From Tetmemena sp. SeJ-2015 (taxonomy: Eukaryota > Ciliophora > Spirotrichea > Sporadotrichida > Oxytrichidae), in the NCBI GenBank assembly GCA_027382625.1, contig JAJKFJ010021811.1, forward strand, positions 214,893 through 278,892: a DNA stretch of 64,000 bases. The letters are read 5' to 3'. The notes under the pieces are model-generated. The model was not told the DNA's origin. It saw nothing but the letters and a program-made list of their open reading frames with translations, and did not search any database. Numbering within the stretch: position 1 is the stretch's first letter; every line of letters starts with the position of its first letter. This document shows positions 5,853-54,332 of this stretch, piece by piece. The position numbers were made by a program, and so were the translations under genes.

Positions 5853-5919
5853 TTTACAGCTAATAACTAAAAGCAGTATATCTCTACAAGGCTTTTAAAG
5901 ACTTCGAATTGCGTGAGTG

Positions 5920-6650: not shown

Positions 6651-6738
6651 CTTAAATTTAAAAGAAATAAAGTCTTTCTATATTAGATATAGGTAACAGA
6701 TTAAAATTAATTAAGCTGAGATCCTTAATTTAGAATAG

Positions 6739-29953: not shown

Positions 29954-31392
29954 ATGGCGAACTACTCAAATAGGAATCAAAGCAAGATTTGTTTGTGTGC
30001 TTTTAACTTTATTTTATGAAGATCAAACAAACAAGATATAGCCTCAGTTTTGGTGGTACAGCTTGGGAGCTACCACAACATTTGCATTTTCAAACATCGT
30101 CAGGTACTATCATGGACAAAATTCCTACCTCACAAACATAATCATCAACTCAGTGCTCATCATTCCCTGCATAGGATACATTCAAAACTTTATAATCTAT
30201 CTTCAGAATTAGAAGATTAGTTTGTTGATTGCTGTGATAGCTTTTAATATTTGATAGTACTGCAAGCTCACAAGAATGGCTCTAAGATTCCCCTTCCATG
30301 GATGATAAAGGGCAAGGGATAAGATACCGAGAATCTCCATTTCAGCTTGTGGGTACTTTTCATACTCTTTATCGGTGGGTCATTTGAGTTTTTCGGCAAC
30401 CTCTTCAGTACAATCAATTATAAAGAGATGACTTTTCTTTAACTGTTTTGAGTTAATTTAACATCCATGAAGTTTGGTTTGCAAGCGCATCTTAGTCAAG
30501 GGCTCTGTGCAGCAGTCTTGAATACGAGCATCATATACGTCTCAGTGTAAAATAAACTCATCAATCCACATTCTGTTTCTATATAACTAAGTGATGTCAT
30601 TTCTTCTCTTCAAAGAGAAGATGAACCTTTGCTAATTTAAGTATTTTTAAATTTAGTGGAGTGATAGGGATAATAGCAGCTGTGTTGATAGTTAGTCTTT
30701 TCAGAAACAACGATAGTAAATTAATATAATAAGCACGAGGAGGAAGATGAGAATACTGAGGTAGTGGAGTTTGAAGATCATGCCCGATTCCTGATGGTGA
30801 TTACTGCGCTCATAGCCTCCATCCTCTATTCAAGTCAACTCCTATCCTTAAATTAAATTGAGAAAGAGAGAATTCAAGTTCAACATTTATATTATTTCAA
30901 TACTATTCAAGTACCTGCTAAGATATACATTCGACACCTTCGGTATAGCGTTCGCATTCCTCTTTTTCTCTGCAGCTTATGGCCTTATAAGTCTACTCTA
31001 CGTTATCTGCTTTGACCCAAACACTCTCAACGATCACAATTTATGCACATATGAGATATTATTAAATTCTAGTCAGCATTTTTGGAGTGTAGTTTGTGGA
31101 ATTCTACTTGGAGCTGCCATCGTTTTAGTGAATGTCTCTTGCAATTTTGGCCTAATAGGCATCACAAACGCCATTCTTCAATCAATAAATATTATAGGAG
31201 ATGCATTAATCCTACATGCTGCATTTAAATTTGAGTGAAAGCGAGACAGTGACTGTGAGTGTATTCAACTACTTCTTTTTTGGGCAGGATTTGAACCTCA
31301 TGCAGGCTTTTGGAGTGTTCCTCTGCTTTACTGGGGGAATCACTATGGCATTAGGAGAGAGCATAGCCAATAAGATCAAAGGCAAATAATGA
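29954..31392 (+). CDS. Drug/metabolite-type (DMT, EamA-like) membrane transporter
   Basis: ATG 29954-29956 (MANYSNRNQSKIYQ after removal of a 31-nt GT-AG intron). About ten hydrophobic helices follow: FWWYSLGATTTFAFSNIV, NIIINSVLIIPCIGYIQ, ISLLIAVIAFNI, VLFILFIGGSFEFFGNLFS, HLSQGLCAAVLNTSIIYV, GVIGIIAAVLIVSL, FLMVITALIASILY, FGIAFAFLFFSAAYGLISLL, VVCGILLGAAIVLVNVSC, GVFLCFTGGITMALGES. The loop LSESETVTVSVFNYFFFGQD before the last helix resembles the E-R-x-T...FG loop of DMT carriers. An acidic loop (EEEDENTEVVEFEDH) sits in the middle. TGA 31390-31392. Some junctions between about 30290 and 30660 and at about 30870 are not resolved exactly. The substrate (nucleotide sugar, drug or amino acid) cannot be told. 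Confidence 0.65.
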
Positions 31393-31499
31393 GAGTTAAA
31401 AAAAACTAAAGGGATTAATTAAGACATGCATGATAAATATAGCTTTCGACTTTACTCTAAAAAGCTTTAGCAATTCTCTAATGCTGATTATAAATATTG

Positions 31500-34400
31500 A
31501 TTAGTCGAAAGTTGGATATGCAAAACGAAGTTTGTGGAATGTCCTGTAGAAATGCTTTAAAAATTGTAGTAGCTTCAATCTTATCGACTCTAAGAGGCTT
31601 GAGCCATTATCGTGCCTATTAAATACCAGCATAGTTTGTATGCGAGTGAGTCAAATCATACTTGTGGGGATCACTGATTACTTCAAAGTCGAAGTCGATC
31701 TAATCAATAGCGATCACATGCTTTCTAGCATAATTTTGCTTAACTCCAGTCAAGAAACTCTAAGTGAAGAAGAATCCTGACAGCCAGAAGGTGCTTGGGG
31801 CGCCATTATCAAATAGAAGTATACTTAACAATGAATTTCAATCTCTAGACAAAGTCAACAACCCAAGAGGCCAAAATTCATGTAAATAATTGAAGGATAA
31901 GACTTCTTTGCCCAGAGTCCGGGTACTATATTATCGATACAATAACTGGCAGCCTCTAATTCTAACGACATAACCACTTCTCCTTTTATGGCTTTGCCGA
32001 GATTGATAAGTGAGCCTCTAAAATATGTATCTCAAAAGCTCTTGTTAGAGCACAGTATTCATGGATTCCTCGTAATATTATGCTTTCTCCATAATTTTGC
32101 TTCTTTGATGCCTCATCAATATCAAAGTTAGGTGGGAGTTTGTCGAGCACACCCTTCGCCAATTCGTTCAAGATCTCGTCTTGAGATTTGCCAACACCGC
32201 CAGCCTTTCTAGGCATGAGGGAAAGGGCTGTTCCAAGCAGATTATTAGTGTCGTTAATTGCACTAGTGATATCTGCGTTATCATGGAGACCGAAATTCAT
32301 ACTTCTCTCATCTGCTCCTTGATATACTCAATGTAGCCTGCGAGAGGTCCATCAGGTGGTACTATGTAAACTATTTCTTATATTCAGTCAAGGTATAATT
32401 AAAGATAAGGTTTTACTTTCCACTCTCAGAGAACTTTTAGGATTAAGACATCAGGGTTGTAGAAGTCTGAGAGGATCTCATTTATTGCCCTTCTATAAAC
32501 ATGTATTTCAAGGCTGCGAACGGAATCTAAATTTATGATTGATAGATAGATGTTCCAACCAAGAGGTCCATACTTTCTTCTTTCCAATATGAGTGCGTTG
32601 AAGAAGCAAAGTGCCCACATCAGTCTCTTCAAGGCTTAAGAATCAAGTTTTGCAAAGTAAGAACCTAGGATGTTATTTCTAAGACCTTTTGGAGGCTCGT
32701 TGGTGATCTTAATTCCATTTTGAAGGATTGAGACTGGGAATTTCTCACTAGGCATAGAAGTAAGCCATAATAAATAAATTGTTATTAGAACTGCCTTTAT
32801 CTTCTACAATCTCCTCAATGATTCCATCAAGCATAGGCATGAATGATTTGAAGTAAAGTTTTGTAGTACGACCCACTCTTGCTGATCAGCTGCGAATAGG
32901 ATGGCCTGATTTTGAAATGAGTCTTTGGAGAATCTTACTTTCTTTTACTCTTAAAGCTTTTGAAGTTCAGACATGGGATCTGCTCCTTTTTTATGCATGC
33001 ATCTCTATGATGGAGGTGTGATATAATAGAGTCCAAGCTCCTTATCCTTTTTAATGAGCTTTTAAATAAATTTGTCAAGATTCTCAGTACGATAGCTCTT
33101 CTGAAGAGAGTGAGCTCATTCCACACACCTGGCCATAGTTCCTTCAAGCTTTGAGGAGAAGCAGAATTGAAGATCTTTTCCCAATCGTGAATTAAATTTC
33201 AAAGTCTCTGTCAAATCCCTTGAAGGCAGTAAGATTTCTCCCATATCCTTACCATCCATTATCTCCTGTAGGGTTAGCTCTGTCAAAGTCAATTGATGTA
33301 GCACTCTTCATTTATAGGAATCTAGCTTCAAGAGGATCGAGCTCTTTATTTTCCTCCATGATTTTCATGCACATCAAGAACGAGAAGAGCAGCTTATCTT
33401 TCTCAAAGAGAGATCTACAGACATTAACGTAGAGCAATTTTTGGAACTTCTTGATGAAGAAGTGCTTTCTGGCATTTCTATCTCCCTTGTCGACTTTTCC
33501 ATCAGCCTTGTCGAGAGCTCTTTCATAGATCATACATGCCATCTTATATAGTTTAAGTTTATTGAGAGAGTACTGGTACATAGGGTCTACATTCATTAAG
33601 ATAGCCTATCTGTTACAGCTACTGGCACAAATTGCTCTCTGATATTTTCAATTTGCTTCATTGTGGACTCCATTTCGATAAGTTAATAATTTGTCTGAAG
33701 AACCAGCAATCTAGTTCAGAATCTTGTCTTTCAAATTATACCATGAGCATTTGATCTTCTAATCCCTCTTGTGTAACCATGAAGTTCATAATTATATCGA
33801 CTTTTGAAAGCTTTGTGGTCACATAGAACCTGAAGCTGGTAGAGTATTCCACTATTTACAAACTTGAATATCTCCAATTAAGATATGAACTACCCTTCTT
33901 TTCAATTTGCTTTCCTAATAGAGGTTCAAGCATGGGATCGAAAGTCTCATTGGCGTCTTCTAAGATGACTGGGTTTCCAAGATTGACGCAGTTTTCTAGG
34001 ATTCTGCTCATTACTTTAGCGTCCATAGTGGGCTTGATTACTTGGATCTTATTCTTTAATATTTCTTCTTGATCCAAATGTTGGCCTGCATTTGAGGATC
34101 GATCATAAGAGTCCTTAAAATTGTAAGTTTTCTAGAATGATGGCATTATCGATAGAGAATTGATCTTGAGGTAGCTTGTCAATCAGCCATTCAATTCATG
34201 AACATATCAATGAAAAATTTTATGGAAAATACGTTCGATTGTCTGATTCTGACTTGGTTTCCAAGGATAGCATTCAAACTGATATCTTCATTGCTCTTGA
34301 TGGGAATTAAAAAACCTTAAGCACATCATCTTGATAGTTTGGCTCAGCAATAAGAGGCTTAAGCCATACACACACATACATAATAGATAATTATCCTTCT

Positions 34401-37400
34401 CGAAGTTCACGCATCTCTTTAAGAGATCATGATTTAGCCACAATAATAGCTCCATCGGGTGGCTTTTTGAAACCTATCATACTATATGATACCTTCTCTC
34501 TCATCAAGCTATATTTAATTTAGAGAAATAAGAGCTTCCTTTGGCCAGGGCAAGAACAAATTTAATGATAGCACAACAGTTAACAAGCACTGATAAAAAT
34601 CTCTCTATTCACTTATTCTAAGTCTTCTCTTAAAGTCCTCTCCAATAGGTGACATAGCAAGTACGACGTGGCAGCTAGTTTTAGCCTTTTGAATGAAATC
34701 AAGCATAATCTCCTAATCAGTATAGTTCTTATAATTGGGATTATTCTTATTCACGTCTTTCATTTAGTCCAGGATGTTTCCAATTTCATCTGCCTCAGTG
34801 TAGAGGTTTGGAATCTATAAACCATCATAATAACCAATTGATGTTCAAAATGTTGTTGATATCTTCCACGAAAGCCTCATTTGTGATTTGGGTGTCTGAA
34901 AATAGGAAAACGGTCTGCTTCTGATCCACTCCACAGCCAAAGAACAGCTTCTCCTTCATATCGTCTCTCCAAGCCTTGAAATCGTAGTTCTTTGAAATTT
35001 CAATACTGAAGCTCTTCACAAATCATCATCTTAATATCTTTGCAATGAAAGTTGCTAATTCAGTGAGGGATTTTCTACCAGAGCCTCTAAAGTGTAAAAG
35101 AAGGCCATGACCGTATTCAGTGGTGATAATTCTGTGGATTTTGACTATATGCTCAATCAATACATTTAATAAAAGCACCAAGTTCATCTTCTTAGAGTGA
35201 TTGAACTTTAAATATAGTCTACAAGGCCTTGCTCAGTGCATTCTTTCACCTTATTTCTGTCAGTGAGCTCACAATACAAATCTCAAACATATTTTAATTC
35301 ATTATCAGGGTAAACAGTTGGAACGAAGGAGGCAAACATATTTTTAAAATATAACTAAGTATTTTGAAATACCCTGGAAGACTTTGCCTTTAAAATAGAT
35401 TTAACCATTCCATAACGTTAGTGAAAATATAGTGTCGAATCTTTTATTCATGTTGTAGTTGAAGTGTCTGACATATCTAGCAGCTAAATATCAAAAGTTC
35501 GATGGGAGGTTGAGCTCATAAAAACAACAACGAAGATGACTCCTTTCTTTCCTAGTCATATATTTTCTTGAGAGAATGACATGGCGAGGTAAGTATTTAA
35601 ATTAGTTATTTTCAGATTTATGAATTCAAATTTTTTAATTAAATACTCTTACCAGTACCTGTGGGACCGCTTATTTTATCTCTGTCGAAGTATAAATCGA
35701 AGATGCTCTTAAAGTCTCCAAATCTGATATATTTGCCTTTCATTTCTTGTAGGAATAAATCGTATTTGGGTCTAGTGTTTTCATCTAAAGCACATCCAAT
35801 ACTCCAAATAACTGAGAAGAGTTTAAATAGAAGTCTTATTCATCATAAAATTTATAGCAGTCGAAAATGTTAATCATCGAGTTGACCAGGAAATTAGGGT
35901 CAGTAGGCACTGGGAACTTTCCTTTCAAGTTGGTAAAGGCAATAGAGAGTTAGAAAAATGAATAGTGCATCAGGCCTCTAACTATCTCAGAAGTCTTGCC
36001 AATATACTTCTCGAGAGCGTTGCAGTAAGATGTGATCAAGGGTGTATGGCCAAGTTATTTAGGCTCCATGAAGACCATACCGCATCTGCTAACTGTAGCA
36101 GGGGAAGCTTGAGAAAGGTCCTCAACTTCGAACATTCAATAAAATTTGGCTTTAGTTTAATAATCTGACCACTATTCAAGCAGAGCTTCTTGTTATCGTC
36201 AAGTACAGTATTCATGTTTTCAATCTTAAAAATTGTAGGTCCATCAAATATAATCCACTTCCTGTCAGGTGTTTCAGATTCTGCGCAATCTCTAATCTTT
36301 TTTATTTATAAATGTATACCTCTCTGAAGAGTTTAAATGACCTTAGATTTTCAAAGTTTTTGACTTATCAATCCGTGTCTAACCATGATAGTCTTATTGA
36401 TATATCTGATTGGAATGAATTCCTACTTTGGTTGCAAATTTTTGAATTATCTCTCAGGCCAGTCTAGCTTTCTTCTTCATATACGGAAAAAGTTCTGATC
36501 TTGAGAGGATAGCTGCTCAGATAAATTCCTATCAACTTTAAGAAAAAAGAGGCAACGACCTTTACTGCCAACTCTGATGCTTCTGAAAATCCAAAGGAGT
36601 AAAGCTCAATTTCTGCAATCAACTTATAGTCTGGCACCATCATAGCGCAAGGTCTGAAAAGTGCCTTGAGATTATCTGGGAGCTCGGATCTTCCAGCGTA
36701 ACCAGGGTTCATGGTGATGTTAACAGCACAAGCTCTGTTAATTGCCAGCTCTGTGCCTTCAAAGAAAGAAATATGTTGTAGGAGGAATGATGAGATCCTT
36801 AATAGCGAGTTGAATTGACAAGATTTGCTGGGCTATAACTGAGAGCACTTCTAAATCGATTCTGTTGAACTCATCGAAGCAACACCAGGCTCCGGAAGCA
36901 GCAAATATAATAGAGCAGTTAAACACGACACACTGGACAGCAATTGCTTTTAAAGATCCTTCACTGATTCTGTCTTTCCAGTTTATAAGACAAAATGTTG
37001 CTCCACCATAGTTCAGATGCTTTGCACCAAGAAGAGTTCTTAGTATTCACTCTAAGGGTATCATTCTCTTCCCAGTAGTATCTTAGCTGGGCTGACCAAA
37101 TTTTAATCCAGAGAAAGGAGCAACATCAATAACGACTAAGGCTTTCAAAGTAGTTCTCTCTTAAAGTTAATGATCTCACAAGCTGCACAATATCTTCGAT
37201 TCCAGAAATTAATATCTTTCAAGCATCCACTTCTCGACATTTCCCTTTTTATCTCCCTCATTCACATCAATCTTGTTGTCGAAAAGAAGAATTTCGTCAG
37301 AGTCACTAAACATGATTCTATAAATTCCCTCAAAGCACTTGTAAAGATAGATTATAATTTTTATAATCAAAGATTGGCTCCAAGTACATCCAAGTTCTCT

Positions 37401-40400
37401 GAATTGAAAAAAAAGGTTCAGACATGTTGTTCAATTTATATAAGAGCTTAGTCTCATTTACAGACTAATTTGCGAGTGAGAACTTTTTCTCTGCTTTCAT
37501 TCTACTTAATTAAAGATAAAAGTAGGCATCTATAACTTTTTTTAGCATTAATTCGAGTTTTGCTTCACAGCATCTTGAATTTCTTTCCTATGATTCACTA
37601 GATGAAAGGCATTTGATCAATTGCAAATATAAAAACTTTGCGACTACGTTAGCGTTCCATTATTTCATAATAATCGAAGAACGGCTTGAACTAGTTGTTC
37701 AAATCGTCTAAGTATAGTATTTACATATTCTATCAATCATATACTGCTTGTAAGTGTCAATACTCTTCAAGGTAATAATTATGATTTTCTTGAAAGATAC
37801 TTCATGAACCAGAAGATTTCAATGTCCTTATCCTCGTATTAAAAACTATATTCCAATAGCAAATAGTGCTTGTAAACTTCATGGAGGAGCTATATATATG
37901 CATTCAACTTTGTTAGGTGCATCTTTAATGAAATCTCTAGTTGAAACTAGCTCTCTTTCGTTGTTTGGATCTGCCATAATTGCAGCATTCATATCTTTAA
38001 TAAGTTAAAGATGGAAAAGGGAATATTATTTAAATCTTAGTAGGTTTTATTGATGTGCTCCACAGATTTTTAGCAGTATCTATTCACACCCTCGAGTAGC
38101 TTTTCTTTTATCTTCTCAGAATTAAATTGATCTCATCGTAGGCAATCTTATAGTGCATGATCTTCTATTTAAAAAAGCTCTCATCTAAGGGGAAGTTTGA
38201 TGCTAAATTTATCTATAAGGGCTGTTTTCGTAGGATTAAGAATTAGCTTGTAATATAGATAGAATTGATTTTTTCATTTGTCTAACGTATTCCTCTTCGA
38301 CGACTCTCATAAGGTACTTGAAAGTTGCATAGACTTTGTCATCTCATTTTGTCACTTTCTCTGACACACTTGCTTAGGAAGTTATATCTTCTCTCCTTAG
38401 AGAGAACTGATACTTAATCTGAACATACTTTTCCAAGTTTGTGAATCTTAGCTCTGCCTCAACGATGGCTTGCCTTTCTTTACACATATTCACTCTTTCT
38501 CTCTTTAATTAACAACTCTCTTTTGCTTCTCTTGTCCTGTATTATAAACTATGACCACAAACTTTCTTTCCTTGTAGTTGTAGTCAGTAACTCATATGGC
38601 TTCCAGAGGTATTCTTTACCCTCAAAGACGGGGGAGAGAGCGTGGGGTTAGCCAGGTCTGGCTTTGCAGTATTCAACCCACTATTCAATAGTCTTGTCCT
38701 CTTCCCATGTGTCGTATCTAGTGAGAGTCTTTGTGTTGGGAAGACTCGGGTCATTGAAGATCTCATACTCCTTTTCAAGAATAAAAATTTATAACCAGTT
38801 GGGTTTACTCCTGGGTAGCTTGATAATTTCATATAGTTTCTCTGAAATTAAACTTGCTTTCTTATTACATTGGCATGTCTGGCAGGATATCTAATACAAA
38901 GTTTAGTGCTAATTTAAATTAAATAAGAATCTTAGGTTATAATAAAATTTGAAAAAGTTGGCACTCACCTTCACGGACTCAAAACTTAAAATTAAAAAAT
39001 TGCAATCTTCTGACTACCAACCTTGGAGTAAAAATATTTTGCACATAGGAATTGTAAAGTGAATTTAAGTGAGAATTTAGAAATAAAATCAACATCATCT
39101 TAAAGCGATATCTCAATCGTTAAGTTGATAAAAGTCGAAATTAATGCTTTTGATCGTGCTTCTTGAGCATAGAAAGTTGGATATGCAAATTCAATTTCAT
39201 AATAAACACTTCCTGCTCTGAATTCCATCTGCAAATATAAAAGGAAGAGTCCGAACACAAAAGCACCATCTGAGAATAAAAGTCTTACCATTATCAATCC
39301 ATTCTTGCATGAATTTTATATCCACACAAGAGGCCAAAGGTTTGAGTGAAGGATAGCTAAATATAGTTGTTATCGAATAGACTATTTGCTACAGCCTCTA
39401 AATCTATTTCAATAAAATGTCCTCGTATTTGATAGGGTGCTTCTTTGATTAAGGTTTTATTGAGAACTTGTAGTTGTCCTTTAAGACATCATAAAAATTA
39501 AAGCCCTTCTATCCATAGGATCAGTAACTCTACCTCGATCGATATTGTACTTATTTTATGATGCAGAGAATTCATAGGGGATGTTCCAACTCATGTAAAA
39601 TGCAATAGTACTAAATTATTTTACTCTGCAAGCTTTTGAGAATTAGGATGAGCTTTTAAATGGCTGGGATGACTTTATCTGGTCTCAAGATTCTCTGAAA
39701 TATATTCTATAAAGAGGAGGATAGATAAACATTCATTAAATCTGCGAGCACGAAGAATAATCTTGAAACTCTAACAGCTACTAATTGATTTCCTTATTAC
39801 TTCATTTCCTTAAGCTGCTGCTCTATTTGCTTGCACTATTCCTTTGACTTTAAATTACAACAAGCTCATCATCTTCCAAGATATTGTCTGAATACTATGC
39901 TCATCTTGTCCTATAGCTCGAACATCTTCCTTTCGTTATCTGCTTTTTGAACGATATCTATAAAGCCTTTTCATATCTCTGGGGTTCTTCATGCTTTTTG
40001 AATTTGAGCATTTGATAATTAATTAGGAGTGAGAAGTTCAACATAGTGACTTTGACACAGACTTCTAAAGTATTACTAAGCTCTATCTCTCTCTCTGTAT
40101 TTAGTTTTCATTATTGCTCTTGATGTTGAATGACTTGATCATGCTAATCCAGTTCTTGACACAATCTTGTCTGTAAATCTACGTGAACACTCCCAAATAA
40201 GCAATGATTCCTGAAAATAAGTTACCACTTATTCTAAACTAAATTCTCTCTGCTTGCCTTGTTAGTGACAAGTGAGTTCTGCCAGTTGATATTTTCAGAG
40301 GCAAGCTTATCTATCAAACTTCCTGCTCTCTTATACTTCTTTTCGCAGTCGTCCTTAAAAAAATTATAGCATAATCATTTAACCTTCTGTGCCTTAAGCT

Positions 40401-43400
40401 TCTCTTCTTCATTCTTTGTGGTCTCAAATTCATCCATCAATTTCTTCATTTGAGCCTCCACTGCTTTAAGTCTATCGAGAGCTTCATCCCAAATCTTTTG
40501 TGCGTCACGAGAAGCCTCTTGAGCTTCCTTGAGTTATTGCTGCTTAGGTCTAACCACCTTCATAGCCTCATCATACTGCACAATAGCTCTCACCCACTTG
40601 GCAAGACCCCAGGCTGCCTTTGATGCTACCTTAAGCACAACACTTATTAATTTGAGGCTTAAGCTTTTCTATAATGTCTAGATTGATGTTATCCTTCTGA
40701 TTAAACGATATATAAGAGGTCAGGACTCAAGAGTTTATACATATTGAAGAGACATTTCCTCCCTTAACTTTCTCAGGAGGTACACCGAACATGATAAACC
40801 ATCTATGATTTGTGTTGATCAAATTATCGGTTCGCATTAGTTTACACATGGTCTTCATCACAAGAATAGTACTTAAAGCATATTTGAAACCTCTGATTTC
40901 CACGATATCGTTTTTGTCGAGTTCGGAGACGGCTTTCATGGCTGCATTGTAAATAGGCATGACTCTAGAAAGCTCCTCCTCGCAATCCTTCTGTATTCCA
41001 TCAGCATTTTCTTTCTTGCTTAGAATCATGCTAAGACATTGAAGTTTGGGCATAAGATCTTGCAGTTCAATGATCTTGAGTACTCTACTTTCTCATACTT
41101 GGCTATGATAGTGTTGACATTAAATTAGATAATGACCCAGCAAGGTCTGGAATGTCTTAATGAGCACAAGATAACTTGTGGGTGTAACGTAGTAGTATCT
41201 CTTTAACTCTTATTATAATATATACGTGGTCAATAAGATATGTAAATTTTACTATTTATGTATAGTAGTATCTATGTGTGAGTTGAGAAACTCTTTCTTG
41301 CATATCAACGCAGATCTGAATGATACCTTGCAAATTAATTTATATTTTTCTCAAGCTCAATTTGATTCAAGAAATGCTCTGCCACTGATTGCAAAGCTTC
41401 CTTTATTTAATTTTAAAGACTTTACAACAGTTAACAAGAGATGGGAACATTCTAAGTATGCAAAGTTTGGAATCTCACCGTTGTTCAAAATTTATATGAA
41501 GCTCTCATAGCTTGCGATGAAAGTTCATATAGAGCCCCCAACTCCGACAAGAAGTCCACATAAATCGAAAATAGCATTGAACTGATTGTAGTCTACAAGG
41601 CAAAATTAATTCACAAATTTAGTTGCAAATTTGAACTATTTTTCTATTATTTTTATAACTTTAGCATCCTCTTGCTTCCAATCATAAAGTGCTAATTTTT
41701 TATAATCGAACATCATTGTCATAGTTGGCTTTAAATAATTAATTTTCAATCCAAACAGCATCGACAGGTCCACAAATTTTTAAGAATAATAATAGATTTC
41801 CAAAAGCAGCTAGACCCTTGAAAAACTTAGCCATAGCTAAATAGTCAAGACCATCAGAGCAGTTTTAATAAGTTATTTATCAAGAATTCTCTCTTGAACA
41901 TTTAGGTCTGATCTCACAAAAGGTTTTTATGATCCTGACCCAATTGGTTCTCTTTACCTTAAGCTTTTGCTCTTTAATATTTCTGAGTGATTTCCTCATA
42001 ACGTTTTCTATCTCAATCATCTTACTTATTGCATTTTCTTCGAGATACTCATTCAAACATAAAGTTATTTTTCTCTTTCAATGAGGTCTATGATGCCTTG
42101 AAATATTCGCAGAATAAAAAGAATTGTGAATGTCATCGGAAGCAAAGATAGTTGCAAATCCTGATACTCATTTGTTCAATTTGGTTTCCCAGAGCTTAGT
42201 CTCTTAAAAAATAAATCTTGATTTTAATTTAAAGAATTGATTTTCATTTTCTCAACAGTTACATCCTCTCTCTATCTATGACCTTAAAATTTTTGATGAG
42301 CTATTTCTCCATGAAGGCTTCTATTCTCTTCTTGAATATATTTAATTTTATCTTTAGTCAGCTTCGTATGCGATACTTGTATATAGTTAAGAGTTGAATT
42401 GCTTGATCTTCTCAAAGGCGTTAGAGAGATTCAATCCAAAAAAGAGAGATCGTTGAACTTCTTTATCTTTTCAAACATTAAAACTCAACTGATTTCCAAA
42501 GGCCATTACTTCATGAAAAAAGAATATCCTCGTATTTGTAAGAGAAGTCTTCCAAAATATTCTATAGGAGCTACGAAAGCTATTCAACTTTTTTAAAATC
42601 TGATAAGTAAATATCTGAATAAGGGATAGTCAACAATTCACTACTAAAGATTTAATTTAAAGTAAACTATGGATTAATTGTGAACGTCGTTAGAAAGGTT
42701 CATGATGAATTCTACTATCCTTTTCCTCGCCATTAAAGAGCTCTTTAAGACTTTTTATATCTTATTTCTTAGTAAAGATCTTAGTCATGCCAACTTTAAA
42801 ATGTTCAAAAAGCCTAACTGGAATCTTAAGCTTCAAAATCATTATAGATTATTTGAGAACGATGCATTTTTTCATTTGCATCTATATACCTTTGTCAGGA
42901 TCAAACTTGTCACTTTTATATTTAAAAAGCATAATTTCAAGAATCTTAAGTGCCTCCTGGGAATATTAACTTTCTCTGATGACGTTTTTATGCTTTCTTA
43001 TATCATTTTATTATAATGAGCATGTCTGGCCGGCAAGCCCTAAATTTAAATGTCACATTTAAAAATATCCATTGAATATTTTGTTAATCCTTTAAATTAT
43101 TTATTAGTTAAGTTGAGTAAGCATGGCGACTCCTCTCTTGACCCAATGCTTTTGGCTTTTTTAAAGTTAGATAGGAATATTATGAATGTCCTGTGGTTGA
43201 CAAGGTACCAGCTCTTCTAGATGTCTTGTAGACAGGGCACATATATGTCTATAAATAACTTAATAAGTAAATGTGAACTTACGTGTTTAGCTTCAATCAA
43301 ATTTAAATTGAGCCATATGTGAGGTACAGTAGAGAATAGAAGCTTAGGGAAGGATTCGGACAACACTTACATAGATAATAAAGATGTATGTTTTCAATCT

Positions 43401-46400
43401 GCAACCTTCGAGGAAGAGTCTAATAAAATCATCTGAGGCTGAGTGAGTCAATATATGTATATAGGATGAGCCTCTCACCTCACTAAGAAGCTTATTGAAT
43501 CTCAAAAGCTCACAATATATTTGTAGAGACCGAAAACTTCTGTGAGGTCGTTAATAGGCATCTGCTCCTTATCTTAAAAGTCTAAATTATGGTAACTCTA
43601 CCTCCATAGTTAGCCTCTGCTACCATGTATTTCAAGTTATTTTTAAAGGAATCTCTTGGAAGTCCTTCAGGAACATGAATAGTTGAGATTGCGAAATTCT
43701 CAGATCTGATGCAGAAAATTAATTTCTTTCTGTAAATTAGCAATATCTTCAAGGCTATAGGCTTGGGGGATGCCTCGATTTCAGCCTCATCAATTGCAAG
43801 GTAATAAAAAAGAAATTCATTCTCATCTATAGAGTAAGCCATATTCTGAAAGCACTGCCTTTATTCAAAATTTTCAAATCATTATAAAGTAAATCTAAAA
43901 AAATAATGGGCATGAATGAAGGAGCAAGATGGCAGTTTTAAGTGTGTTGATAGATGGCCTCCTTAGCTTTCTCACTCTAACCTTGTCCCAATGAGAGTGA
44001 CTTCCATCTTACTTTAGCATTAATCGCATCAAAAGTGATTTTCTGCTCCTGGAGACAATACGAAAATCACAGGAGTCTTGTTAGTTGAATCAGAGAATGA
44101 TTTAGCCAAGTCAAATGGTGGAGGTAATATACTTAAACAATTGTGAATGTGAGTTTCAAAGATGGGTAATCTGCACGTGAAGAAGATTTCTGGACATTTC
44201 TAATATTGAGGCCCACTGTTTGTCAGATAGCCATCCATAATCATCTATTTTAGTAGCACCAGTCATAAGGAATCTTCTTCTTATAGATCATACAGAAGAA
44301 CTTGAGAGAGTATAAATTTCAGTTTTTCTCAAACCATTCTAACTTTGACTCATCGAGGGTTATCACAAGCTCATTTTTTAGAAATTTGAACGATGAACTG
44401 ATTTCTCTTTTCATTAAAGAGATTATGTTAATTCATGCTTAACGACAATACTGAGCATAATTTTCCTCTCTTTAAAATATGTTGACACAGACTTCTGGGC
44501 TGTAATGAGGTCTTGAAAGCATTTTTCTTGTTATTATATTTATTCAAAGTATTCCACTGGGTTATCTCCGATTCTTAGGTACATCAAACTACCCTATATT
44601 TATAAGATCTTATTCTTCTCCTCCATCTTCTTGATCTATTAAAAAGAGGCCATCTCTCTGAGTTTTCTAGAATAGACTTTCATTAGTGCATTTTAAGATT
44701 CCTGAACTGACAAGGATATCTCCAACTAAATTTTAGCTTTAAATCCATGCTCAAGAGTTTCTTCTTTGCTGGCTCCCAGAAATCCCATTGCACTTCCTTG
44801 ACATTTACTACCCCATTATATTGATTTAAGAATATTTTCTTTCTTGCCCTTAGCTATAGCCTCCTCAGCTTCGACCTCCTTAGTTTTCTCTGCTACTTGC
44901 TTCTTTTGCTTATCAATGTCTATCATCATTATAGCTGTCTGTTTCTACTTCTCTTGAAGTTTGGAGAAAATTAAACTATGATAGAGAGTTCAATTTGAAG
45001 TCTGTTTACTTCTTTAGATGCATGCACTAGCTAGTCAAGACCTTTCTCATGTATCTCAATAACTTTGACATGCTTTCTCTTTTGACCCAGCAAAATATAG
45101 AAGATTGAAAATCGATAAAATCTACTATATATTTTGTGTTGTGCTATCGACTGGTTCTTTCCCTAAATGCTCAATAGCGAAACGAAAAGCACAAAGATTG
45201 AATTATAATAAACTTTCAAATCTGTAAAGGGCTTCTTGGTAGTGTCATTATCACACTATTCACTAAATGAGGCAAATAGGAGTGGCTCTACCTCAACTAT
45301 CGATTTCCACTCTCTCTTGAACTTTTCTTTGATGATATCCTTGAGCAGGTCATCAAACTTGATTCTATCCTCATCACTGATCAATCTGTCTTGGAAGACT
45401 CTTAAGCACTCATGAGCCCAGAGTTTGACCATCTCACTTTCGTTTCTTACTCCCTTTGGAGAAGCCTTTGAAATTCAACTATCAATTAATCACAGACTTT
45501 GCTCACATCTCTCAAGTTATAGGTGTAGTGAGACTTTGCAGGGGTTGGTCTGAACTTCTCAGAAATACTCTTGTAGATGAAAATTGTGTTAGAGACCAAG
45601 CTATCTCTCATTCCTTGAATAGCCTTTGAGTAGGAGGGGTTTGAATTTATAAGGAAGAACCATTCCTCGTATTATGAGAGATAAATAAGAGCTGTGATAA
45701 TGAAAATGTAGTTCAAACTCTCCTGAGAGTATGGTTCGATGTAAATGACGTTGAAGTGTATTTATTGAATTTAGCAGTGATATGATTTCTTCCACCTCCT
45801 GGGGGACCCATAGCAGTCACAAACTTGATAGATTAGATGAATCTGAAATCCTTCTCATTGGTATCAATGTCATACCATCCACCATAGTCCATCCACTATC
45901 TCAAAAGTTCAGTCAAACTTAGATCCGATTTTGAGCTCCATAAACTTCTTTTTGTGGCATGTTCAAGTCATCAACGAATGGTTAATTAAGTTTAAATTTT
46001 CTTTCCAAGAGGAGGGCCATAGACTCCCTTTCTTCTCTTTTCCATCTTTCCATCTATGATTCTTTGAGTTTAGTTGGCGCTAGTTTGGGCAGAGAATGAC
46101 TTAAATAGAGGAGATGTAAGTATAGGTCTGATTATCAAATGAGTTCTTGAGTTCATTTGCAATTGAAATACTCTTACCTAGCAAATAAGTAGTTAGACCG
46201 CAAATCATGGGATGCTTGTCACAGTTAATAAGAGTGTTGAGGAGTTTGTTCATTCTAAACTTTGAAATTTAGAATTCGTACTTTGAATAACCCTAAATTT
46301 ATTTTCTACGGTTTAATAGAGTCAATGGTTGGGACGATAAGTCTTGAGTAAGAAACGTCCTTTGGCACAACAAAAGGTGGGATAGTCTTGAGCCAGTTGA

Positions 46401-49400
46401 TCCAGTTAATCTTGTCTCTGTCATCGCAATAAATTAATTATTCCTCCAAGTTTGACATTGATTTTCTTGGCTTCAAAATTAGGGATCTCAAGTTTATGCT
46501 TTGTGTTGACATCCTTCTTGTCCAAGGATTTCTTGTGCTCAAATTTTAAAAATTGAACTGAAAAGAGAACAGCATTGATGCACATTTCCTCTGCTTCTCT
46601 GGGTACTTTAGCATCCCAAATAATTTCATAAACGTAGCAGTTTTTGGATTAGAGTTTATATTTAATAGAGAGATCAGCAAGATAGTGCATTCATTCATTA
46701 GGAAAGGCAAAATCTCTAATCTTGATAGCGAGGACTCCATCACTCCATTCTCCGCTATCCATATCAAACTTTCCATAAAGCTAGTCTTGCAGAATACTCT
46801 TGGGATTAATGTAGTAACATAGCACATTTACAAAGTTAGGATCATCCTTTATCAAACTCATACCTCTCTAATTTGAGGATAGATTTTCCAGAGTAAGATC
46901 TTCCTACCACCATCAATCTCATTCGATAGTCTCATAGAGTTAGATACACTTGTCAATGAATTTATGATAAAGATAAGGAAGTAAATTTTTCTCAACACAT
47001 CCTTCGTGCATAGCGGTAATAAGTTTCTCATAGTCAGGTTGAGGAAGAGTAACTCCAGGGAAGAGATCGCTGGTAATACCCAAGAAAAGAGGAATATCGT
47101 TTGAGGTAAACTTGGGGAGATTTACATCGTTCAAGGCTCTGAGACCAATATATCTCTCAGGAGTTTATGATTGTTTTCTTCTTAAATTACCGCAAGCTGT
47201 CAAAATAGCTTTAAGGGCTCTCATTCCAAAGTCATAGTGATCTTGAAAATACAAAACTGCTCACTAGAAAGTCTGAGTGAGGCAACTCATTTTTTTTTTC
47301 AAAGATGAACTTTCTCTTCTTGAGATCCTTAGAATTATTTCTCTATAAATGAGGATTGCCTTTGGCAAGATCCTGTAATTTTCCAGTTCCGGCGGGGCCC
47401 TCTGGTGCTCCAAATTCAAAGAGTTCTGTAACATCTATCAGTAAGGGGAGTAATAACCAGTCCTAGTGAGTTTCCTAGATACTCATATCCGTAATCAATA
47501 ATGGCTGTAACCATCTTCACTCTGAGTTTAAATTTCATTTCCAGCTTACCAATCAAAGTCATAGACACTCTTAATTTCCTTGGCCATAAGGTCAATTACA
47601 ACGTCTCTTGCATGCACATCAATAATGAGTGAGTATAAGAAAATCTTCGATTTAGCTTTGAAGAATTTTTTCCTTTTAAGATTCAAGTCCGACATATCCA
47701 GACTCTTTAATAGCTGCCTTTAACCTTCAGTTGTCCAGTGAGTTTGATTCAAAGGCAAGTACAATTTGTCCTGGCCACTCTCTGACCCAATTATTCTAAT
47801 GATTTACCTTATGGTAAGCTGAAAGACTCTCCTTGCAAATCTTTCTGATTATTATATATCAAGCATCCTGAGTAATTTATTGTCGAAAAGTACCTCTTCA
47901 CCTTCCTAACTTATCATTTCCATAGAAAAAATTTTTTTTTTTATCAGAAATTAACTTTAAAAAATAAAATTGGTTTCACACTTGTCCATATGAGGCTGTA
48001 CAGCTCTTGGCTCTTTGGTCTGAGCCCCCCAAGAAAGCAAAAAGAGAAAGATCTTCCCCCCTTTTTTTTCTAAAAAAGTAAAAAATTTCCTGGGGAATAT
48101 CAATCTCTTTTCTTTAACATTCTAATTCAAACTCTTTTAAATTCTATCGAGTTTTTTGTTTGCATCCTCGAAGGATTGCTTGATGTTTTCTCTTTCTCAT
48201 TTAATATTTAGTTGATGATGCCTGGATCACTTTCAATTGCATCCATGGTTTGCTTCCAAAGGGTGTCTACATCCTTAAACCAAGAACCCTCATTTGGCAT
48301 TTGCTTGTGAATGAAATATTATCAACGACTATAAATTTTAATCTAAGTTCTTTGGCACTTTGCTACCTCTTCTATGAGTTCAGACATGAACAAAATTCTA
48401 AAGTCTCATTTCTAAGTTTACCCTTCATGAATTGGGAACCAAGCATAGCTTGAGTAGAAACAATCTAGTCATCAAGCTTTGCATTTACATCGTCATAAGC
48501 CTTGAGGACATAGGTCTTTCCTTTGTAAGGGAAGAGAGTTAGAGTGAATAGCTTCATTTCTTCTTTCATGGTCTTGAGTTTCTTTGCGAGTGAATATTTT
48601 TAATTACTTTCATTGTGATTTCTTCAATTTCTTCGATGTACTTGTGGAATTCCAAGGTCTTCATTTTTCCTAAAATTAAGGGCACATCCTCTCTCTCAAG
48701 AGCTGGTTGCTTCACAGATATTAAAAACTTACGATGGGTTAAATTTCCTTCCAATCTTCTTCCAAAATTGCTTCAGATGAAAGCTTTTTCATTTTAATTG
48801 CAAGTTCTCCATAAGTTAAAAATCTCTTCTTTTATTCCATAGCTACCTCTGCAGTCTCAGGGTAATCATCAAGTAGCTTTTTGTACAATTAGAAGCATGA
48901 CTGATGCCAAGAATTAATTGAGGAAGTAACAGCAGCCGCATCCATCTTTGCATCTTTAATAAATATAAGTTCCATTCTTTGATGCTATAGTCAGCAAAAA
49001 ATGATTGAATTCGATACTTGTAAGATCGAAGAACTTCTATTTTAATTCTAAGTCAGGATACTCACTTCTAGGTTGATTAAATAGAGACTCCCTATCGTTG
49101 AATTCTATGGTGGCTTTTTAAAGAGAGATTCTCCTTAAGATTGAAGGCATCAGCTGAGTATTCAGTTATAGCTGAGAGATCTATCACAAATTTTCAAAGT
49201 GCTGCTTGTTAATAAAGTAAAATGCTCTTCAAGAACAAGTCTTTTTCTTGCTCAAGTTTAGTTGTGAAGATAACTTCCTTATTCTGGATTTAATAACTTC
49301 CATCTGTTAATGAGGAACTGATTTCCTATTTTTCAAAATTTTATGTCCACTAAATATATCTTATCTTCTCGGCTTGATGACCAAGATTCTATTTCATGTT

Positions 49401-51221
49401 CTGAGCCATAACTCTGAATAAGTTAAATGAAACCTTAAGTAGTTCATGATCTCATCATTATTGTAATTTATACAAGCAGAAGATGATCTTCTCTCTAATT
49501 TCATTGAGAGGTGCCTTTTCAATTTATTTAAAGCTCTTTAAGCAAAGCCTTTTTGTCAACATTGAGTATATATTCATACTACTTGTATTTTTCTAGGAGT
49601 TCAAGGGGGCCTTTGATATTTTCCTCTATCATAGCCTCAATGTGATCCTTAGCCTCAACACACCACTCAAAGCTCTCATTTTTTAATATGGAAGTTTGGT
49701 GTTCTTTCCTTTTAAAGGAAGGGCATTAGGTCATCCTCCAAGTTGCAAACCTTATTTGTGGAATGAACAATCATGGTGATTGCAGACTTGAGGAAGTCTC
49801 CGCATTTTTAGATTCTAGGGTGGTAGAGGATCCTATTTGAGTCATCATCAGGGTTCTAGTCTGTTTCTTCAGCACCTGGAGCTCCTTTAACAGTCTTGCC
49901 TCCCTTCTTTGCTCCCTTTTTCTTGTCCTCCTTTTTGTTGCTCTTCATTTGGAAGCTAAGATGAATGACAATTAGAGGTGTTGGCTGAACTTTCCAAAGC
50001 TCGTTCTTCTCAATGCTTGGAATAGTGAATGACCGAATAAACTCAACCCAGTCTGTTATGGAGAGTCTCACAAACTCTCTCAGATAAGTATTCAATATGT
50101 ACTCAAATCTAGCGATGATTCGCTTTAAGGGGCTGTTTTATTCTCTATTGAGTATAAATTTCTAATTAGCTTCGAAGAAGTTATGGTTCTTTCTGAGTTT
50201 GTCTTAAATCTCTCCAATTAGGAAGTCTCTCCACTGAATGAGCATATTTTGTGAAACGGATTAGTGGTGTGAGTTCTCCATCTTTTACAGCTCAGAGAGT
50301 TCTCTTGGCAGTTTCAAAATTTGCTTGTTGGTGTTCATAAACCTGAATTCCTGGAAGTCAATGCATTTCTTGGTAAAGACAACTACTATATTTTTTCATG
50401 CCAACTAGGTCAGAGTCTGCACTGTAGTGCTCTCTTCTAATTTCATCAGTCTTCTTCTTGAAGTCGTTTTCTCTTGTGCCAGGTGGGAAAGAAATGGGGT
50501 AGACGCCTTCTTTGCTTACCAGGTAACCCTCTCTCTTAAATTTGACCACGGCGAAGTATGGGGCAGTTTTCTTGGGAAGCCTAACTAGAGGAAAGTAAAA
50601 TTGATAAGCTTCAAGAACTTTTGGTGGTTGACTGGCTCTTGCATCTCTTTGAGAACTTAAAAAATATCCTAGACACTATTGTATCGAGGGCAAAACTTAA
50701 TCTGAAGGAATGGAATCAACCAAGTTTAACGACTCATCTATGCCCAATTCTCTTTCTCTAAACAGATCAGGGCTTTCATCGAAGAATAGGAGGGAAAGTC
50801 TTGTAACTAGCTTCTCTTGATAATTCTCAGTAACTGACACTGGCTTCCAATTTTATAGCACTTATATGGGTAGCTTGATCTTTGGCAGCGTTGGAGTCTA
50901 TCTCCTCAAGGAAAGTTTTTTCTCTGAAATTGAAATCGATATGATCTTCACTGACTCAAGATACTCTTTGTGCGTGGCTTCATGGATCCAAGGGTTGACT
51001 ACTTTGATCTCCTTGGGTTGCAGGGCTTGTTATTCCTCGACCGACAAAAGTGATGGCTGCTCTTCGCCGTTGTAGCCGTGGTTTGCTCCTCCGTTGGTGT
51101 CCATATATCCATCAGCACCAACCTTGGAGTCATCAACGACTTCGTCTGCACCGCCTGGTCCAGTTCTGTATTTACCTACGAGCACAGGCTTGTTCACTTT
51201 GTGGATTGAGAATTGCTTCAT
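31500..51221 (-). CDS. Scrambled germline gene for an axonemal dynein heavy chain (inner-arm type)
   Basis: Microtubule motor of cilia. The start ATG 51219-51221 opens a clean N-terminus ([20 protein letters not shown]) with [14 protein letters not shown] further on, like single-headed inner-arm chains. Within the locus every canonical block can be found: linker, AAA1 ([44 protein letters not shown]), AAA2 ([15 protein letters not shown]), AAA3 ([24 protein letters not shown]), AAA4 ([30 protein letters not shown]), stalk and microtubule-binding domain, AAA5 ([19 protein letters not shown]), AAA6 ([11 protein letters not shown]), and the C-terminal [13 protein letters not shown]. They do not lie in one line. 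They are spread over three successive passes, each lacking blocks that another holds, with short repeats at the joins. The 3' limit is approximate. The macronuclear product must be assembled by DNA rearrangement before it can be expressed. Confidence 0.88.
36496..36503 (-). repeat. Pointer 8, pass 3 side (CAAGATCA)
   Basis: Recurs at 47238-47245 in pass 1. Crossing gives [17 protein letters not shown], the canonical start of the AAA1-AAA2 junction. Confidence 0.9.
36513..36519 (-). repeat. Pointer 7, pass 3 side (TGAGCAG)
   Basis: Recurs at 47257-47263 in pass 1. Crossing back gives [10 protein letters not shown], as in other dyneins. Confidence 0.88.
36549..36556 (-). repeat. Pointer 6, pass 3 side (GTTGCCTC)
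   Basis: Recurs at 47279-47286 in pass 1. Crossing gives [14 protein letters not shown] across the end of AAA1. Confidence 0.88.
36896..36902 (-). repeat. Pointer 5, pass 3 side (GCTGCTT)
   Basis: Recurs at 41804-41810 in pass 2. Crossing back joins FFKGLAA to [13 protein letters not shown] in frame. Only 9 nt lie between pointers 4 and 5 in pass 3, so the displaced IES is minimal. Confidence 0.88.
36912..36920 (-). repeat. Pointer 4, pass 3 side (AACTGCTCT)
   Basis: Recurs at 41856-41864 in pass 2. Crossing here joins VVFNCS to DGLDYLAM, the invariant dynein sequence that pass 3 lacks. Confidence 0.88.
36953..36959 (-). repeat. Pointer 3, pass 3 side (GGATCTT)
   Basis: Recurs at 47367-47373 in pass 1, where the 13-nt micro-segment GGATCTTGCCAAA follows. 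It supplies the Ala codon missing from pass 3 and restores the frame. The return point is AAA at 47361-47363 and 36948-36950, giving KDLAKAIAVQC. Confidence 0.7.
36975..36983 (-). repeat. Pointer 2, pass 3 side (AACTGGAAA)
   Basis: The same 9 nt lie at 47380-47388 in pass 1. Crossing back here gives GTGK followed by TESVKDL, the canonical dynein AAA1 order. The 15 nt between pointers 1 and 2 in pass 3 do not encode dynein. Confidence 0.85.
36999..37004 (-). repeat. Pointer 1, pass 3 side (GGAGCA)
   Basis: The minus-strand GGAGCA at the end of a pass-3 segment recurs at 47406-47411 at the start of the Walker A segment of pass 1. Joining there continues LxxGGA into PEGPAGTGK in frame. Confidence 0.75.
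38971..43020 (-). other. Dynein locus, pass 2
   Basis: Again in N-to-C order but shorter. It holds [18 protein letters not shown] of AAA1 (about 41804-41860), [11 protein letters not shown] of AAA4 (about 41425), the stalk with the microtubule-binding region ([20 protein letters not shown] at about 40890-40950; [28 protein letters not shown] CC2 helices to about 40430), the AAA6 start [15 protein letters not shown] (about 39770) and C-terminal pieces WIDNGK and [10 protein letters not shown] (about 39240-39280). Stop at TGA 38971-38973. The parts between these blocks are dynein-like but garbled. Confidence 0.8.
43053..51221 (-). other. Dynein locus, pass 1 (N-terminus to C-terminus)
   Basis: Carries the N-terminal 400 or so residues nearly intact, linker pieces ([18 protein letters not shown] at about 48440-48500), the AAA1 Walker A segment [11 protein letters not shown] (about 47380-47411), [17 protein letters not shown] (about 47190-47240), [21 protein letters not shown]2 [16 protein letters not shown] (about 46760), AAA3 Walker B FVDDLNMP (about 45965) and GPPGGGRN (about 45800), RDVSKVCQ, the start of the stalk, [19 protein letters not shown] (about 44250), [11 protein letters not shown] (about 44060), [16 protein letters not shown] (about 43600) and the very C-terminus [15 protein letters not shown] (about 43125). 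It ends at TGA 43053-43055. Missing here: the AAA1 Walker B block, AAA4 and the microtubule-binding tip. Confidence 0.85.
47925..48090. other. Homopolymer-rich patch inside dynein pass 1
   Basis: T10, C6 and A6-type runs replace the place where the linker sequence around W-x-Y-LEPIF is expected. Pass 3 carries that motif at about 37390. The patch is either IES sequence or poorly resolved consensus. Confidence 0.4.
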
Positions 51222-52027
51222 CTACTTCCTACAGTAACATCAAAATATAGTGTAAACTTATCTATCATGAATATTTTTGAGAAGTAACGGTTATCAAAGG
51301 GAAAGGAAGAAGGGGAGCGAGAGTACCTGGCCTTTGAGGGTTTTTCTAAGATTTCGTTCTAAATTTGTTCATAGTGGTTGCTTATCTATTGGAAATCGGG
51401 GACTGTCAACTTCTAGATTGGTCCTACACCACAAACAAATAAGTAATTGAATTCGCGAAGGGCCGCTTTTCAAATTTCGAGTTGCAATTACAAAACCCAA
51501 ATAAATTAACTCCTTGCCAAATGAGTTAATTTCTTCTCTATAAGAAAATTATTTTAATGACAAATTTAGGGTTATTATATAAATAGTGAATGTAAGAGCT
51601 TACCGAAATTCTTATTCTAGCCAATTGCTTTTTTCTTAGACTTATGCATACACTTAATTAAAATAAAATTATTTATTGGGATCTAGTCTCCACCCCTTTA
51701 TATAAGCCCTATTTTATTCCTACTCTCACTCCAGCCAATATATTCCCAAATAAATAAAAAAAGGATGTGTACTATATAGTTGTATTTAATGAATAATAAA
51801 TATAAGCCCTCTTTATTAGCGATTAAATTCAAATCTTAAAGCGCTCTATGAGTAAGAATTTCAAATTCTACTCTAATAGTATTCACTCCTTCACCACTCC
51901 ACTTTCAAATTTAAATGATCACTCTTCAATGTTGGTTTTCAAGATTAGCAATGGTAAATTGCTAATTACTTTTGTATCGTGTATATTTATCTGTACATTA
52001 AATTAAATCCTTATATTCTTGTGCGAA
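51222..52027. promoter_or_regulatory. Divergent region between dynein and PGP-repeat genes
   Basis: 806 bases between the dynein start (51221, minus) and the start of the PGP-repeat gene (52028, plus). No coding is seen. It contains an imperfect inverted motif GTAACGGTTATC at about 51286-51297 that is not a canonical RFX X-box. Two axonemal genes may share this control region. Confidence 0.4.
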
Positions 52028-54332
52028 ATGGCGATAACCAACTACTCTGAAAGAGATGTGCTGAAGGTATTTATCTAGCAAGATCCAGAAAGAGGACCTG
52101 GCTTGTATGAAGTGCCCTTCTCAACCTTTGGTTAAAATCAGTAGAAGCGCAAGAGCTTGAAGGCAGCACCGCCTTTCGGACAAGGCTCAGGTTTCAACAA
52201 TCGAGACCAACTCCCTCAAGGTGGTGCTACTAGCAGTTACCTCCCACAGCATCACTACACACCCGGCCCAGGGTAGTATGACGTGAAGAAAACCAAAGGC
52301 TCCTTCGACAGTCAAACTGTAGTTAATGTAGATCAATAGCAAGGAGTTTACTTTGTGGTCAAGAATGGCACACTTCAAAAGAAGTCTCAGTGGCTCTCAG
52401 CCGATAAAACCAAAAAAGGATTCGATACTGTGAATCAGGCACCCAAGTAAAATATACCTGGACCTGGCGCATATAACACAACTGATATTCATATAAGCTT
52501 AGGTGATATATCAAAGAAAATAAAATAGAGGAATCTCAGTCCAAGGCTTGGACTGGCCAATAAAAACATCAAGAGCATCAGTATTAACTAGACTGATCAT
52601 GCTGTAGAGACTTATAAGCTCACTTCAGTGCCCAGTATACCTTCTAAAAGTCAACTGATCATAGTGCAAAAGTAGCAGCACCCGATCAATGCCTCCTCCT
52701 TTGAGAATTCTGTCTAAGACCTTTCTGGAAACTAAAGCTTTTAGTCTAGTCATCAAAACTTGAGTCCTCTTATTCAGACTTCTTAGGTGTCAACTTCCAT
52801 CATGGCTTAAGTAAAAACAAGCGACAATGATGAGGATTACAGAAAGAGGGTTGGACCTGGAAGCTATGACCCAAAGCTTTTGGAAAAATAAAACTCTGTA
52901 TCAGCCTGGAGTAAGTCCAAGCAAGAGAGGAAACTTTGGTTCGAGTAGAATCCAAATGCCCATCCTAATCTCAACATGACTTCATAGTATCAATTTTCTA
53001 CTAATTTAAGCTTCTTAGCTCGGATATAGACCAGGCCTAGAGGAAATCTCAGAGTACGATGAAAGAAGAATTGAGATTGGAGATCAGAACCCACAAGACA
53101 TCAAGCTTAGAAACCTGAAGCTAAAGAGATATCATCAAAAGTATAAAGTCAAGCGGCCTTTCAGCATTGGGGAATTCGAGAGAAGATTCCTTAATAAAAG
53201 TGGACAAGTAGATAAATCACAAGATGATGATGACCTTGAGGACTCAGAAGATGAGAAATTTATTTTACTGCTCTTAAATTTAAATCCAAGGGGATCACTC
53301 CAGGACCTGGGTAATACTATAACCCGATTACTCAATCCTCAATCAAGAAGCAATTTAAAGATCAGAAGCACTAGTTCTTTGGGAGCTCAGAAGACAGATT
53401 CTTATTTTAATGTGTTCTTTGATTTAAAGGGTCAATTTTCAAGCAAGGGGAAGATTCTCACAAAAGTACTCCTGCCTATGTAGGCCCTGGTTCCTATAAT
53501 TTAAATAGGATTAGTAAAGCATAAATTAAACGAGACCACAATTATTCATCAAGGAGAGATAAAAAGAGTCTTTGATGTCGATAAGGAGACTCTTGAGAAA
53601 CCTGGACCTGGAAATTATCAGCTTAGTGACTAGTCAATCTCAGCTAAGAAAGATTTTCAAAGGCAAATTCAGGCAGCATTTGGATCTTCGGACAGTAGGA
53701 AGATCGGTGCTTTTAAAGATTCCCTATCTCCCGGACCAGGTACTTACGATGATAAGAAACTTGAGCAGAACAATCACATCTATGGTAACCAGTCAATCTT
53801 CAAGTCTAACACGAAGAGAACTATTGAAAAGTTTATGGTCCCAAATCCTATGATCCCATCAGCCGCTGATTACAATTTGCAACATTATAAAGGCACATCT
53901 TACAACTCACTTCAAGGGGGTGCTCCCAATAACATTCTAGTCTTGAAGAGAGCGGTTTAGAAATAGGTGGAGAAGAATTATGAGAGAGGTCCTTTTAATG
54001 ACTAGAAGATAATTTCTTAACAAACCACTCTTGATTAGTACGAAAATATAGGGCCCGGAGCTTACACACCAATCCAAAATGAAGGATTTGGGCCTGCTTC
54101 GAAATAATAAAAGGGCAAGGGAAATGTAGATACCTTTGGAAAGAGCCGAAGATTTAATGATACTCTCAACGAGCTTAAAGCTGGTTAACTTCCGGGGCCT
54201 GGCCACTATGCAAGACAGCCTTATATGGAATAATCTGAGTGGCAGAAAAGAACTTTCAATCTAAGATATTTATAGAACGGCTAGGAGGTCTTAAGATCCA
54301 AAAGCCAAGTCAATAAAAGTGCTATATATTGA
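52028..54332 (+). CDS. SHIPPO / sperm-tail PG-rich repeat protein
   Basis: Axonemal microtubule-associated protein of the ODF3/STPG type. ATG 52028-52030 (MAITNYSERDVLK), TGA 54330-54332. At least ten PGP-x-Y style repeats are seen along its length: RGPGLYEV, TPGPGQYDV, IPGPGAYNT, VGPGSYDPK, TPGPGQYYNP, VGPGSYNLN, KPGPGNYQL, SPGPGTYDD, IGPGAYTPI and LPGPGHYAR. Typical spacing is 60-90 residues, with K/S/Q-rich linkers that use TAA/TAG freely. The frame changes a few times between about 53030 and 53570. The gene is divergent from the dynein and convergent with the next gene. Confidence 0.88.

Follow-up and report, generated by a model that had tools for sequence, protein, structure and literature searches.

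A dynein heavy chain gene in probable germline DNA of a spirotrich ciliate, interleaved over three tandem tracts

The stretch analysed here (the window, 64,000 nucleotides) is the end of contig C2873, in an assembly of 146 Mb and 5213 contigs. Between 31500 and 51221, the minus strand carries a dynein gene three times, each time from the N to the C terminus. We refer to these runs as tracts 1, 2, and 3, which are passes 1, 2, and 3 of an earlier sequence-only reading (Table 1). The dynein motor domains (AAA modules, then stalk and C-terminal domain) follow the expected order, and AAA1 motifs are present in the window. The three tracts are complementary, pieces absent from one being present in another. 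The coding segments have a G+C content of 40.5% and the spacers between them 27.4%; the spacers are noncoding and A+T-rich and are missing from the joined product. The longest open stretch of the locus is 287 codons under genetic code 6, compared with 1525 codons in contig C3676, whose positions 7-7514 contain the dynein gene's 3′ part in reading order.

On the opposite strand, the dynein locus is adjoined by two overlapping frames of 490 and 450 aa (51590-54332, plus strand, code 6). Both contain sperm-tail PG-rich (SHIPPO) repeats, which mark a type of ciliary protein. Pfam matches were obtained for two of ten window frames chosen by length, both being SHIPPO repeats. CTC-rich tandem repeats are located at 28825-28904 within a 405-aa plus-strand frame (28444-29661, code 6) that has no Pfam match. 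Rfam and tRNA scans of the window, the latter run with a bacterial setting, returned nothing.

Table 1. Coordinates of the tracts, motor pieces, switch words, and spacers in the window.
Feature	Position	Strand	Description
Tract 1	43107..50819	-	38 kept DNA-level segments (43107-47072); protein-level segments to 50819
Tract 2	39032..41864	-	34 kept DNA-level segments (39032-41765); most of stalk
Tract 3	31507..38782	-	50 kept DNA-level segments (31507-36435); protein-level segments to 38782
Piece ending GPAG, first half of AAA1 Walker A	47388..47411	-	Tract 1
Piece beginning TGKT, second half of AAA1 Walker A	36921..36982	-	Tract 3
AAA1 piece with SDGLDYLAM	41811..41864	-	Tract 2
AAA1 piece with DEFNR (Walker B region)	36557..36902	-	Tract 3
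Longest switch word, 18 nt	31507..31524	-	Second copy at 39172-39189; kept once, at C3676 161-178
Other copy of the 18-nt word	39172..39189	-	At edge of tract-2 segment 39143-39171
Tract-1 spacer like missing piece, possible decayed copy	43393..43451	-	54/65 columns
Tract-2 spacer like missing pieces, possible decayed copy	40689..40736	-	44/54 columns, switch word first

A full-length relative, P0096, was found with the pass-1 reading frame. It is a 4102-aa dynein on a 12.8-kb metagenome contig and, like inner-arm dyneins, has a tail, a linker, AAA modules, a stalk, and a C-terminal domain. We aligned P0096 to the window with free jumps, with no order imposed and without using C3676. The resulting segments fall into three monotone chains, which take up all 67 segments scoring at least 60, 91 of 93 at 45 or above, 101 of 107 at 40 or above, and 117 of 176 at 25 or above. 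The controls (plus strand, reversed P0096, and window 1-20600) gave 2, 5, and 2 segments of at least 60, and 25, 32, and 27 of at least 45; hence, a single weak segment means little. These chains, with controls far lower, bear out the three same-strand N-to-C runs of the sequence-only reading, and place the gene in the same three tracts as C3676 does. Tract 2 is strongly supported only below 41.87 kb, that is, from P0096 residue 1437 on, and the region of 41.9-43.0 kb contains weak matches only. The alternation in the N-terminal third is mainly that of passes 1 and 3, and residues 1-31 of P0096 have no reliable match in the window alignment. The evidence for the 5′ part of the gene is at protein level, and the joined DNA covers the 3′ part.

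The P0096 alignment resolves several motor blocks. The AAA1 Walker A motif, which had been assigned to pass 1, is split between tracts: the GPAG half is indeed in pass 1 and the TGKT half is in pass 3. The sequence AACTGGAAA is common to the TGKT piece and the end of the GPAG piece. The other assignments agree with the alignment, SDGLDYLAM being matched in pass 2 and the AAA1 Walker B block, with DEFNR, in pass 3. Translation from 36902 keeps the P0096 frame at its start and shifts further along. According to the P0096 map and the domain limits, AAA4 is mainly in pass 3 and the stalk mainly in pass 2, also as previously read.

C3676 was recovered by a DNA search of the same genome with window 31500-51300, which scored 30 of 32 candidates. 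Its first 7.5 kb consists of short pieces from the three passes in turn, as seen with blastn too. We mapped C3676:1-7530 to window 30001-52500 using a dynamic program that allows free jumps. This coarse map has 101 segments with 96.7% identity; 88 of its 100 junctions change tract, and two small segments are out of order. A fine map, with a lower jump cost and with bands taken from the coarse map, has 141 segments and 125 switches before filtering. It is not monotone, the order check having failed at all three jump costs tried. We dropped 19 of the 141 segments, which lay within C3676:5157-5384 or 6191-6330 or at either end, or were no longer than 7 nt; the dropped zones were picked after the alignment had been seen, and strict order holds only after dropping. 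The filtered map contains 122 segments with a median length of 38.5 nt and 98.5% identity (7006/7115), 82 of them perfect. There are 113 tract switches, and the order is strict within every tract. In control runs of the same program, neither window 1-22500 nor the opposite strand of the locus yielded a segment of at least 30 nt at 95% identity or more, compared with 58 at the locus. The order of segments in the window differs from that in the joined product, as in a scrambled gene.

The interleaving proposed by the sequence-only reading is thus seen, with blocks much finer than the eye could read. That reading expected a rearranged sequence to map to alternating pieces of the three passes. C3676:7-7514, a candidate somatic sequence, fits this expectation. 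DNA colinear with one pass, the first outcome named as speaking against scrambling, was not seen: two DNA searches of the same genome, one of which scored 30 of 32 candidates, gave no such joined copy. As for the gaps between consecutive pieces of the same tract, we considered introns missing from C3676 and rejected them, for none of the 10 gaps listed, out of 12 in the coarse map, is GT...AG on the coding strand. Several same-tract spacers in window 31879-46312 are 30-60 nt long, three of them with TA shared at the flanks.

We then inspected the switches for words shared by the two sides. At 100 of the 125 switches of the unfiltered fine map, the two sides have an identical word of 6 nt or longer (median 9); the remaining 25 have none of that length. 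In the coarse map, such a word occurs at 73 of 88 switches (median over all 88, 9), compared with 0.2% of displaced control junctions. Most switches have a shared word of which the joined copy retains a single instance. Hence, the overlaps of 2-20 nt that had been predicted exist as direct repeats, one copy of which is retained in the product. The switches predicted from the protein alignment were scored for frame-compatible shared words of at least 7 nt. These are found at 14 of 24 switches in the N-terminal half, the other 10 having none, and at 36 of 52 in the C-terminal half, against 1.0% of 2995 control pairs.

The C3676 frame exceeds the Pfam cut-offs for the microtubule-binding stalk, AAA_9, the D6 P-loop, the lid, and Dynein_C. 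The closest solved chains to its C-terminal 1525 aa are DNAH7, DNAH12, and DNAH3 (PDB 9fqr and 8j07), which match over nearly the whole length. By this best-match ranking, the protein would be of axonemal type, near the single-headed inner-arm dyneins. The 1525-codon frame contains 17 in-frame codons of the type TAA (7) or TAG (10) but lacks TGA, which indicates that both codons encode glutamine here. Among 67 exact matches of the C4A4 telomere word, nine begin a contig at its first base; the control pattern is identical when reversed and therefore carries no information. Glutamine at TAA and TAG and C4A4 telomere repeats are traits that we take to be those of spirotrich ciliates.

Contig C807 matches window 43369-29825 in a single alignment (94.5% identity) that crosses both tract borders. 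Tract 1 above 43369 is outside this alignment and is present in the window's contig alone. As C807 keeps the spacers, has a longest open stretch of 257 codons, and has no 12-nt C4A4 telomere word, it is likely the other germline haplotype. Substitutions between C807 and the window, counted in the part mapped at DNA level, amount to 81 in 3415 positions of segments and 139 in 2407 positions of spacers (p=2e-10). In the ungapped segments of the protein map, the differences at the three codon positions number 9, 4, and 60, with 793 sites each. This bias indicates that purifying selection acts on a frame that becomes open only once the pieces are joined. Elsewhere in the assembly, the contig pairs C446/C2934 and C1923/C3577 have identical scores and profile coordinates in their dynein AAA_6 matches, and the assembly is therefore likely to include contigs that are duplicates or haplotypes of one another.

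The locus very probably represents one axonemal-type dynein gene in more than 120 pieces, which are interleaved over three tandem tracts in likely germline spirotrich DNA and would be joined at pointers. The pieces would be MDSs that are cut and rejoined during macronuclear development, the shared words would act as pointers, and parental RNA would guide the joining as described for Oxytricha; joining of segments at pointers under parental RNA guidance is set out in PMC5940158 and PMC9797194. The C3676 mosaic, the shared words, and the P0096 chains all support this MDS and pointer interpretation, which the sequence-only reading had offered. Three same-strand runs, none of them open for more than 287 codons and some with spacers resembling decayed copies, could also come from three decayed tandem dynein paralogues that were never joined, the gaps being remnants of decay. 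However, such paralogues account neither for the complementary losses nor for the shared words at the switches, and a codon-position pattern of 9/4/60 is unexpected in decaying copies; together with the existence of the joined copy, this pattern refutes decayed paralogues in substance and makes them extremely improbable. Just as little credit is due to a misassembly, in which the locus would be an artefact patched together from reads that came from several dynein genes or from both joined and unjoined DNA. Artefacts do occur in C3676, another contig of the assembly, but C807, which differs by 5.5%, shows the same arrangement across 29825-43369 and the two tract borders within it. Moreover, the pieces keep strictly to their order, and the switches carry shared words.

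C3676 itself has several irregular features. In C3676:5157-5384, it retains a pass-1 spacer where P0096 matches pass 3. At 7515, it passes into sequence resembling contigs C132, C189, and C2943, and no second contig spanning this junction was found among the matches listed. Its last 5.3 kb is a self-palindrome of 72% identity and low G+C (L041:3173-8463, equal to C3676:23173-28463), which looks like a raw-read foldback carried over into the assembly. The 12-nt word C4A4C4/G4T4G4 is absent from C3676. The sequence from 7515 onward belongs to a repeat family (L039 in C3676; L057, L058, L059, and L060) common to C3676, C132, C189, and C2943, whose direct and inverted copies are about 70-85% alike. 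We rejected the repeat start at C3676:7515 as a transposon end: a family copy elsewhere continues past that point, so 7515 is merely a breakpoint of C3676. We take C3676 to be somatic DNA within a flawed, chimeric contig, the mosaic itself being real sequence. The passage of the joined sequence at 7515 into C132-, C189-, and C2943-like sequence would also be expected if C3676 were a germline back-copy rather than somatic DNA, the joined gene having been inserted next to the repeat family; such rare events are proposed in PMC9797194. With a foldback-like palindrome, a retained tract-1 spacer, and no second contig listed across 7515, however, the contig looks chimeric, and we regard a back-copy as improbable. 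A combined scheme carries slightly less weight still: a frozen three-copy duplication ratchet of approximately 200 mutually indispensable pieces (extrapolated from 122), with C3676 as the germline back-copy that rescues the gene. It draws on the proposal, also made in PMC9797194, that somatic-to-germline rescue is the sole exit from scrambling.

The degree of interleaving was assessed by reducing the pointer word, that is, by removing repeat and return words in our own implementation of the approach outlined in PMC5940158. The reduction clears 107 of the 113 pointers of the filtered map and leaves 6; in the coarse map, 9 of 88 are left. An odd-even pointer word reduces to nothing, which that of the locus does not, and map errors may explain some of the leftovers. 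As references, 41 of 41 pointers remain under a strict three-way order and none under a strict odd-even order. A strict cyclic three-way order was considered for the locus and rejected. Only 30 of 120 consecutive triples of segments touch all three tracts. Hence, the gene occupies three tracts, yet its arrangement is mostly one of nested two-way (odd-even) blocks.

We then compared the spacers with the pieces that their tract lacks. The lengths of a spacer and of the missing piece are weakly correlated (rho 0.35, p=2.5e-4, n=106). A resemblance to the missing piece was seen in 19 of the 88 spacers of at least 20 nt. In 11 of the 19, the match spans at most 20 columns and is largely a copy of the switch word. 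Among the 8 longer matches, 43393-43451 (54/65) and 40689-40736 (44/54) look decayed, whereas 44606-44636 (30/31), 39616-39639, and 44138-44161 (23/24 each) represent either second copies or segments that our map assigned to the other tract. With modest support from these comparisons, the likely origin of the locus is a tandem duplication of the gene, after which each copy would have lost pieces that another kept. Three tracts of the same orientation, each running from N to C over much of the gene, fit such a duplication more simply than another route of origin, of the model type named in PMC9797194 (Chang et al. 2005). So do the spacers that resemble the missing piece, and the same paper favours duplication and decay as the general origin of scrambling. 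On the other side, only 6 of 113 pointers (9 of 88 in the coarse map) are irreducible, no more than the 30 of 120 triples noted above touch all tracts, and tract 2 is poorly supported in the N-terminal third. Another route is, on balance, doubtful, with a real chance of being correct.

With this locus, a further case of extreme scrambling becomes available, together with a joined copy and what is probably the second haplotype. The possibly half-decayed spacers and a haplotype 5.5% apart make the duplication-and-decay model testable piece by piece. According to PMC9797194, the published Oxytricha gene with the highest degree of scrambling likewise encodes a dynein heavy chain, and long motor genes may therefore be sites of a scrambling ratchet. 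That gene, Contig17454.0 of Oxytricha trifallax (dynein heavy chain family, 13.7 kb), has 195 scrambled junctions and is extremely scrambled as well; the comparable figure here is 113 switches in 7.1 kb of mapped 3′ sequence. No Oxytricha-named protein is among the 120 of 2423 protein matches listed. Massive scrambling of a dynein gene is already known, and what is unusual is the three-tract layout. The sequence-only reading had called such a locus an extreme case; it is less extreme than supposed, given the Oxytricha dynein with its 195 junctions. Among the titles and abstract starts listed in literature searches, none concerned a three-tract gene, which does not by itself establish its absence from print. 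The odd-even genes of Oxytricha, Tetmemena, and Euplotes woodruffi (PMC9797194; PMC5940158) share with the locus short direct repeats and alternating tracts. Like theirs, the pointer word of the locus reduces mostly to repeat words, and its spacers are low in G+C. The 6-9 irreducible pointers counted here, with our own map and implementation, compare with none in a strict odd-even gene, and are near the class of at least four, which comprises 22 Oxytricha loci in PMC5940158. Different from the odd-even genes, which are divided between two tracts, the gene described here is spread over three tandem tracts on the same strand.
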